Below, piece by piece: positions 39,001-41,075 of a stretch of 64,000 nt of DNA. Under the pieces are notes generated by a model that made no database searches, was not told where the DNA came from, and was given only the letters and a program-made list of their open reading frames with translations. Each line of letters begins with the position of its first letter. Within the stretch, counting starts at the first letter, position 1. Where the stretch lies: assembly GCA_022776445.1 (NCBI GenBank), contig JALFHZ010000122.1, forward strand, positions 1 to 64,000, written 5' to 3'. The position numbers were made by a program, and so were the translations under genes. This DNA is from Lachnospiraceae bacterium. GTDB lineage: Bacteria; Bacillota; Clostridia; Lachnospirales; Lachnospiraceae.

Positions 39001-40294
39001 TGTACGGGAACAGAAGCATTACGAACGGAAGGTCGTATCCAGCGCCTACAACCGCGTGATATTCACCAAAGATATGAAAAAGGATTACACGCTGCTCTGT
39101 CCGCAGCTGTCCCCGATTCATTTTGAGCTTCTGGAACCTGCAATCCGCTCTTTCGGTTATAAAATCGAGATCCTGCAGAACGACGACCGGGAAGCCATCG
39201 ACACAGGACTCCAGTACGTCAACAACGATGCCTGCTATCCATCGCTGATCGTCATCGGTCAGATTATGAAGGCGCTTCTCTCCGGCAAATACGATCTGAA
39301 CAAGACGGCCGTTCTGATGAGCCAGACCGGCGGCGGCTGCCGTGCTTCCAATTACATCGGCTTCATCCGACGTGCTCTGGAGAAGGCCGGCATGCCTCAG
39401 ATTCCGGTGATTTCCATCAATGCCAACGGCATGGAGACCAACCCGGGCTTCACCTTTACGCCTGCTCTGATCACAAAAGCCATGCAGGCGATCGTATACG
39501 GCGATGTGTTTATGCGGGTTCTGTATGCGACCAGGCCTTATGAGAAGGACCCCGGCTCCGCCAACGCACTCCATGAAACATGGAAGAAGCGCTGCATTCA
39601 GAGTCTTTCCGGAAAATCACCGAATATGATTGAATTCGGACGCAACGTCCGCGGGATTGTCCGTGCGTTCGATCAGCTGCCGCGCCTGAATGTCAGGAAG
39701 CCAAAGGTCGGCATCGTCGGAGAGATCCTCGTGAAATTCTCTCCGCTCGCCAACAATCACATCGTGGACCTGCTGGAAGCCGAAGGCGCAGAAGCCGTGA
39801 TGCCGGATCTGATGGATTTCCTGCTGTACTGCTTCTACAACAACAATTTCAAGGCAGACCATCTGGGCGGCAAACGTTCGACCGCACGGCTCTGCAACCT
39901 GGGTATCTCCCTGCTGGAGTACCTGCGTAAGACCGCACGAAAAGAGCTGGAAAAGAGCGAACACTTCACCCCGCCATCCCGCATCTGGGAACTGGCCGAT
40001 ATGGCAAAGGAATACGTGTCTCTCGGCAATCAGACCGGAGAAGGCTGGTTCCTGACCGGCGAAATGCTGGAGCTGATCCATTCCGGCGTGAAGAATATCG
40101 TCTGCACACAGCCGTTCGGATGCCTCCCGAATCACATTGTCGGCAAGGGCGTCATCAAGGAACTGCGCCGGACCCATCCGGAATCCAACATCATTGCGGT
40201 GGATTACGATCCGGGTGCAAGCGAAGTGAACCAGCTGAACCGAATCAAACTGATGCTGGCGACAGCACAGAAAAATATGAAAATGGATGCATAA
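36056..40294 (+). CDS. Tandem BadF/BadG/BcrA/BcrD-type acyl-CoA dehydratase activase with DUF2229 and HgdB-like region
   Basis: Two activase ATPase domains ([29 protein letters not shown]), CxxC-rich central region, 1412 aa. Confidence 0.9.
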
Positions 40295-40299
40295 AATAT

Positions 40300-40880
40300 G
40301 CCCTCAGGCTTTTCGCCTGAAGATTCAAATCCAGATCCCCGCCATCCGGGGTATCGTATTGGATATCATGAATTTTGCACCCATAACACAACGATGACGG
40401 ATATCAATGAGTTTTCTCTCTTCCTGAGTTCTTCTCTCTTTGATATCCGCCCTTAATTAGACTCGTCCATTGGACTTTACCTCTCTTATTCAGTTTTTCT
40501 TTGTTCTATATGTAATTGTTTCCCTCTGCTTCTGCTAATCGATCATCCCGATATGGATTCCATGTTCAACTGATATTCTTACATCTTGTTATCCGATTCT
40601 AAAATCTATCTTTCTAATTATACTTTCTCGTCATATAACTAAACCGATTCTTTTCAGTTATTGATAACGTTCTGATCTGGTTTTCTTCGAATTTTCTGAT
40701 CTTTCACACTGCAGATTCGTTTTTCCTATGTTCCCAACTATCTCACGGAATAGCAGAAACGAAACTAACTATCTCGGTGGACCGTACCTCCTTCTTTCAG
40801 ATTTTTTGAAATTCCCTTCACGATGGGGAACTTCTTTGAGGATTTTTCTTATCCTCTTTTGTTTCTCTCTTTCTTTGTTG
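40300..40880 (-). ncRNA. Candidate large structured non-coding RNA (~580 nt)
   Basis: Near-consensus promoter pointing left into an ORF-free purine-rich (minus) region with many hairpins (e.g. GGATATCAA/TTGATATCC, GAGGAT/ATCCTC, CCCCG/CGGGG, TCAGGC-GAAAA-GCCTGA). Confidence 0.5.
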
Positions 40881-40885
40881 TCTTT

Positions 40886-40914
40886 ATAATACTAGATAGA
40901 TCTTATTTTGTCAA
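40886..40914 (-). promoter_or_regulatory. SigA promoter TTGACA-17-TATTAT for the ncRNA candidate
   Basis: Minus strand TTGACAAAATAAGATCTATCTAGTATTAT. Confidence 0.75.
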
Positions 40915-41045
40915 CACTTTTATTTAAATTTTTTATTATTATTTGTAAATTGTCAAATTGTATAATAATTTTCAAACAATACATTCTTTTATGACACCAG
41001 GATTAAAAGATCATGCATGAAATGCAAAACAATCCGTGCATCATA

Positions 41046-41075
41046 GGGGGCAAACCGTGTTTTGCCCCCGTTTTC
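41046..41075 (+). terminator. Intrinsic terminator GGGGGCAAA-ACCGTG-TTTGCCCCC-GTTTTC
   Basis: 9-bp perfect stem with a T-rich tail only on the plus strand. Confidence 0.65.

Follow-up and report, generated by a model that had tools for sequence, protein, structure and literature searches.

Genomic context of the RNA gene

The window (the whole 64,000-nt stretch of DNA analysed) carries on its minus strand a gene for an RNA of about 490 nt (Table 1). On one side of it lies an activase gene of the BadF/BcrAD type, which is convergent and stops at 40294, and on the other a pair of ABC-exporter genes with a MarR regulator. The promoter of the RNA matches the consensus at 11 of 12 positions, the minus strand downstream of it is purine-rich and without a long ORF, and the z score of the predicted fold against dinucleotide shuffles is -4.8 over the 596-nt region and -4.0 over the 490 nt of the refined gene. 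A preliminary description of the region had recognised the promoter, the purine bias, the structured RNA and the inverted repeat GGATATCAA/TTGATATCC, and all of these stand; the repeat is exact (40399-40407 and 40440-40448) and is the covarying 3' terminal hairpin of the RNA family described below.

The same description placed an RNA of ~580 nt at 40914-40300. That this is an independent RNA gene is upheld, with its extent corrected to ~40879 to ~40390. The genome holds a second copy of the RNA on another contig (88% identical) and a third, shorter copy. Because the second copy loses similarity at ~40372, the conserved RNA ends near 40390 and not at 40300, and therefore a TCAGGC/GCCTGA hairpin that had been listed as a 3' hairpin falls outside it; this hairpin probably terminates the convergent activase gene. 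The reported lack of a credible ORF is true of long ORFs, while a conserved five-codon ORF lies at 40470-40453, and an RNA ending in such a mini-ORF is not the purely non-coding molecule that had been supposed.

A similar imperfect hairpin repeat (GGGGCAAAACACGGTTTGCCCCC...CATGCATGATC) adjoins each of the three copies of the RNA that the genome has (40983-41066, L002:1349-1430 and L003:1240-1330), and at L002 it is part of the duplicated segment. The second copy lies upstream of an ORF that reads as tyrosine-recombinase-like (L002:2881-3507, G000:C41), which suggests a segmental or mobile duplication.

The promoter recurs in relatives. Among 80 independent relative loci, an exact TTGACA-N16-18-TATAAT is present at most 650 nt upstream in 41 (0 expected), and a promoter with at most one mismatch in 64 (1.4 expected). 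This near-consensus sigma-70 strength suggests high expression of the RNA.

Table 1. Features of the RNA gene in the window (positions are those of the window)
Feature	Position	Strand	Evidence or remark
Promoter TTGACA-N17-TATTAT	40886..40914	-	Inferred RNA start near 40879
RNA gene, ~490 nt	40390..40879	-	Copies in own genome, colinear blocks in relatives, fold z = -4.0
Internal start-less module AAGGAGGUACGGUCCA-CCG-AGA-UAG	40769..40793	-	Consensus built on 166 start-less internal modules
Hairpin with invariant 11-nt loop UGACGAGAAAG (loop 40633-40623)	40612..40644	-	59 windows
Shine-Dalgarno-like sequence AAGAGAGG of terminal module	40480..40487	-	
Mini-ORF ATG GAC GAG TCT AAT TAA (MDESN), five codons	40453..40470	-	
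3' terminal (terminator-like) hairpin, directly after mini-ORF	40399..40448	-	Compensatory changes, match to covariance model R1

Distribution and neighbourhood

Relatives bear out the expectation that the RNA is conserved. Blast found matches in 21 of 200 Lachnospiraceae genomes, many of them as colinear blocks, and the promoter and several blocks are conserved in a MAFFT alignment of the relatives. A scan with the 16-mer TATGACGAGAAAGTAT, filtered for the other blocks, gave 79 places, from which came 64 non-redundant members with promoters, belonging to Hungatella, Enterocloster, Lachnoclostridium and other Lachnospiraceae. R1, a covariance model made from the 3' module, matches the window at 40390-40488 (E = 2e-14). 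At E<=0.01 its matches, with E values from 2e-19 upward, reach 195 of 397 Lachnospiraceae genomes, and ~140 of these remain at E<=1e-5; since the model was built from one clade, the count of 195 is probably a lower bound. R1 also served to gather, beside the first set of loci, a second set of 80 in additional genera.

In a class-level sample outside the Lachnospiraceae, R1 gave nothing below 1.7e-5. An order-level match at 4e-6 was judged false on inspection, and the five best class- and order-level matches inspected were the hairpin alone or an ordinary gene start, and so not relatives. Hence the family is, as far as tested, restricted to the Lachnospiraceae. A phage or plasmid origin was rejected: collections of both gave no blastn match to the RNA, and six IMG/VR matches to the module pattern lacked the core loop, the promoter and a proper terminal module.

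The genes that flank the RNA differ from clade to clade, which argues that it acts as an independent unit. The downstream gene is convergent in the window and in ~44 of 73 first-set loci, where it is a radical-SAM gene that we take to be PflA/PflX-like; for the second set, the nearest downstream gene is on the same strand in 46 loci and on the opposite strand in 33. No same-strand downstream gene of the kind expected for an attenuator leader is consistent across the loci, and the earlier statement that the RNA is not a leader holds at the window locus. In some clades the RNA is followed on the same strand, at 1-280 nt, by another gene, which in some of them is for a MATE-like pump. In one clade (20 second-set loci, L203-L231), the gene that follows on the same strand, at 1-216 nt, is for a conserved membrane-anchored protein, whose N-terminal 200 aa have no Pfam match; read-through from the RNA into this gene, specific to the clade, is possible.

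Other RNA genes occur near some members. In nine same-genus genomes (G681-G685, G687, G689-G691), 6S RNA is encoded 1.1-2.4 kb downstream on the same strand; this arrangement was not seen in the scanned Enterocloster and Hungatella loci, and a general linkage to 6S RNA was rejected, being found only in the genus of the window. The Clostridiales-1 RNA (RF01699) lies just upstream in L066 (L066:3817-3974).

A conserved five-codon mini-ORF before the terminal hairpin

The 3' terminal hairpin shows two-sided changes in 12 of its 14 pairs, with 96% of cells paired versus 81% in shuffled and 37-44% in slid controls; in the window, the U-tract that follows it is weak. Directly before the hairpin, every first-set member examined (59/59) opens with ATG, GTG or TTG and reaches a stop codon (TAA in 23, TGA in 20, TAG in 16), after five codons in 52 cases, six in 4 and ten in 3. 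The same start-to-stop reading is found in all 78 readable members of the second set (five codons in 58, six in 16), a set that is enriched for the mini-ORF since R1 was trained on this region; R1 does not ask for variable stop types, in-frame length changes or a serine codon swap. Taking both sets together, 125 of 132 mini-ORFs are exactly five or six codons long, as against ~15 in shuffles (maximum 25 in 1000) and 2 and 1 in the other two frames.

All three stop codons are used among the 132 mini-ORFs (53/53/26). Codon 2 is Asp (GAY) in 117 of them (GAU 61, GAC 56), and serine at codon 3 is encoded by both AGY and UCA. The commonest peptides are MDEIV (17) and MDSIV (16) out of 77 distinct ones, the length being more conserved than peptide positions 3-5. 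In nearly all cases the stop falls between 3 nt inside and 1 nt before the predicted hairpin. Directly before the start codon, CCA is near-universal in the RNA; only 12 of 397 ordinary genes preceded by GGAGG have CC there. Thus the start codon, Shine-Dalgarno sequence, in-frame stop conserved beyond chance and synonymous change of a translated minigene are all found, and by these sequence comparisons the terminal mini-ORF is under selection for its frame, its length and, in part, its amino acids. We consider it very likely that both the family and the mini-ORF are real.

Two members contain two complete terminal modules (minigene and hairpin) in tandem within ~200-570 nt (L237:1293-1369 and 1501-1578; L231:929-1005 and 1501-1575).

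Further upstream, the stem that presents the UGACGAGAAAG loop is paired at 90-98% in its outer pairs, and single pairs show as many as 28 two-sided changes. This hairpin occurs in 59 of 135 RNAs, mostly in one clade, and no complement to its loop was found in the rRNA locus of one genome (G046).

Repeated Shine-Dalgarno modules

The RNAs carry 1-7 copies each of a single-stranded module with the consensus AAGGAGGUACGGwCCA-NNN-NNN-NNN-UAA. With a weight matrix, 326 modules were located in the 135 RNAs, often in tandem, with a spacing peak at 50-58 nt; inside the modules, the base-pair probabilities of a hairpin reach at most 0.32, with no consistent structure. The terminal module has a start codon in all 132 RNAs where it was placed. 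A start codon is also found in 28 internal modules, 17 of which are three codons long, and is missing from 166 others, which have CCA, CCG or AAG at its position in 147 cases and another triplet in the rest. Of these 166 start-less modules, 113 keep an in-frame stop exactly where a three-codon ORF would end. Extended pairing of the module part UACGGwCCACCG with the 16S 3' tail was considered and rejected beyond the Shine-Dalgarno sequence, as shuffles pair about as well. The conservation of UACGGwCCACCRAAAACGUAA in the start-less modules is thus not explained by 16S pairing, and the conserved part beyond the Shine-Dalgarno sequence may be a protein-binding site.

Some members carry 4-7 tandem modules, and many others have one 5' module, a long structured middle and the 3' minigene. 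The minimal members L235 (207 nt) and L262 (184 nt) hold little besides modules and terminator, so that the family is defined by its modules and terminal minigene and not by the large folded middle. Likewise, since divergent members are short (~200 nt) and consist mostly of unpaired modules, what defines the RNA is not that it is an "ornate large RNA", as it was initially portrayed. Of the members seen, L265 is the most repetitive, with six tandem modules at ~62-nt spacing (GGAGGGACAUUCCAAUGGG...), most with AUG, at -793 to -481 before the model match.

Comparison with known RNAs

A search of the window with 4227 Rfam families gave no match above the gathering threshold. No relevant match to the window RNA appears even at E<=10, and at E<=0.5-1 the RNAs of 18 relative loci have none either; rRNA, tRNA, 6S RNA and the Clostridiales-1 RNA pass the threshold elsewhere in the relative loci, and nothing does over the RNA itself. 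The preliminary description had offered a ROOL-like RNA or a new class, and had named ROOL, OLE and GOLLD as large RNAs of about this length. The covariance model of ROOL (RF03087) has no match in the window region (E<=10) or in the 18 relative loci (E<=0.5-1), that of OLE (RF01071) none in the window or the relatives, and GOLLD none in the window or the relative loci, so that the first part of the proposal falls and the second is retained. Replacement of 6S RNA or tmRNA is unlikely, as both are matched separately in relatives; in the draft genome of the window (G000), 6S RNA is on another contig and tmRNA was matched below the cut-off only.

Several known systems share single properties with the family. 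OLE, like it, is a large Bacillota RNA (in an RNP), with a link to translation initiation such as is proposed here; its anti-Shine-Dalgarno mimic binds bS21 (PMC12054373), whereas the RNA described here bears copies of the Shine-Dalgarno sequence itself together with mini-ORFs. ROOL is of comparable length, also from Bacillota, and a stand-alone intergenic RNA, but the present family is modular, its modules are mostly unpaired, it has an ORF and it has no match in the phage and plasmid collections. The STAB-SD known in Bacillus, a ribosome-protected Shine-Dalgarno sequence without a start codon, resembles our start-less modules in being strong and lying in an untranslated region; it occurs singly, in the leader of an mRNA, while the modules repeat in an independent RNA and have an extended conserved motif. 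Minigenes of two to a few codons (the axe-txe leader, lambda bar) are likewise tiny ORFs, each served by a ribosome-binding site of its own, but act in cis in leaders or belong to phage elements, whereas a conserved terminal five-codon ORF here defines a family of independent RNAs. Finally, dual-function RNAs of the RNAIII and SgrS type are regulatory RNAs that also encode a peptide; theirs has tens of residues, unlike the five found here, where start-less ribosome-binding-like modules are present as well. The literature searched, with incomplete coverage, contained no description of such a family. Within that literature and Rfam, then, the RNA is a previously undescribed class of unprecedented architecture.

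Proposed function

In light of the gene boundaries, conservation, covariation, mini-ORF and module architecture, what might the role of this RNA be? From these sequence features we infer ribosome binding, translation of the mini-ORF, an abundant RNA and a decoy role. We give roughly an even chance to the RNA being a trans-acting molecule that engages ribosomes or 30S subunits, or serves as a decoy for them, and in which docking modules precede a pentapeptide minigene. The near-consensus sigma-70 promoter would drive a stand-alone RNA that ends at the terminator-like hairpin. Its last module (Shine-Dalgarno sequence, UACrGUCCA and start codon) would direct translation of a pentapeptide of the MDEIV/MDSIV type (MDESN in the window), with the stop codon falling at the foot of the hairpin. 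The upstream modules, which have the same Shine-Dalgarno block and mostly replace the start codon by CCR or AAG followed by an in-frame UAA, would dock 30S subunits without productive initiation, and the occupancy of the RNA by ribosomes would report on translation initiation or buffer it. More tentatively, the RNA may be, across the family, a strongly expressed natural sink or sensor for 30S subunits, the tandem start-less modules capturing initiation-competent subunits and the minigene reading out translation at the terminator. Lachnospiraceae would then have a layer of translation control that was not known before.

Other readings explain parts of the evidence. The RNA could be a stability cassette, in which the 5' module works like a STAB-SD against 5' decay, a ribosome on the 3' minigene shields the 3' end, and the variable middle holds the real activity. 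STAB-SD elements in Bacillus, which are discussed for example in PMC4113751, offer a precedent, and many members do consist of one 5' module and a 3' minigene around a long structured middle. Protection of RNA by minigene-bound ribosomes has, moreover, been proposed for axe-txe (PMC8708949). Since L235, L262 and the members with 4-7 tandem modules leave little middle to protect, we regard this as unlikely, if well short of negligible. The pentapeptide may instead be the product that matters, a formylated peptide of the MD[E/S]IV type acting on the ribosome or as a signal. The preference for Asp at codon 2, the two leading peptides and the serine encoded by both codon families favour this, but the existence of 77 distinct peptides and the better conservation of length than of positions 3-5 do not, and the start-less modules are left unexplained, making it improbable.

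A minigene effect, with peptidyl-tRNA dropping off and tRNA or ribosomes being titrated as three- and five-codon ORFs are translated again and again, would fit the good ribosome-binding sites of these ORFs, and strongly expressed minigenes are known to act in this way elsewhere (PMC8708949); with the start codon absent from most internal modules and the last sense codon variable, it is quite doubtful. Marginally more doubtful still is an attenuator, where translation of the mini-ORF would melt the terminator hairpin and let transcription pass into the next gene. The mini-ORF stop does overlap or abut the hairpin foot, and some clades do have a close same-strand gene (the MATE-like pump, or the membrane-anchored protein of 20 loci), but because the downstream gene is often convergent, as in the window, and varies between clades, this is unlikely in general. 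Least probable by far is a ROOL-like or other known ornate RNA, or one that titrates CsrA. Size, purine bias and a stand-alone intergenic position are alike, but Rfam gave no match, and a CsrB-type sponge was rejected because 118 of 326 modules have no GGA and eight RNA-bearing genomes of the genus gave no CsrA match.

Returning to an RNA that engages ribosomes, the combination of repeated ribosome-binding-like modules with a conserved five-codon gene suggests a new way to engage the protein-making machinery. If the pentapeptide is active, few of the conserved gene-encoded peptides known to us are as short. To our knowledge, gene finders ignore five-codon ORFs, and comparable elements may therefore be widespread and overlooked. 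The RNA is present in a large share of the sampled genera of Lachnospiraceae, a dominant gut family, including cultured species of Hungatella and Enterocloster, and is therefore directly testable. Should this RNA indeed capture ribosomes, translation would be under global control of a new form.
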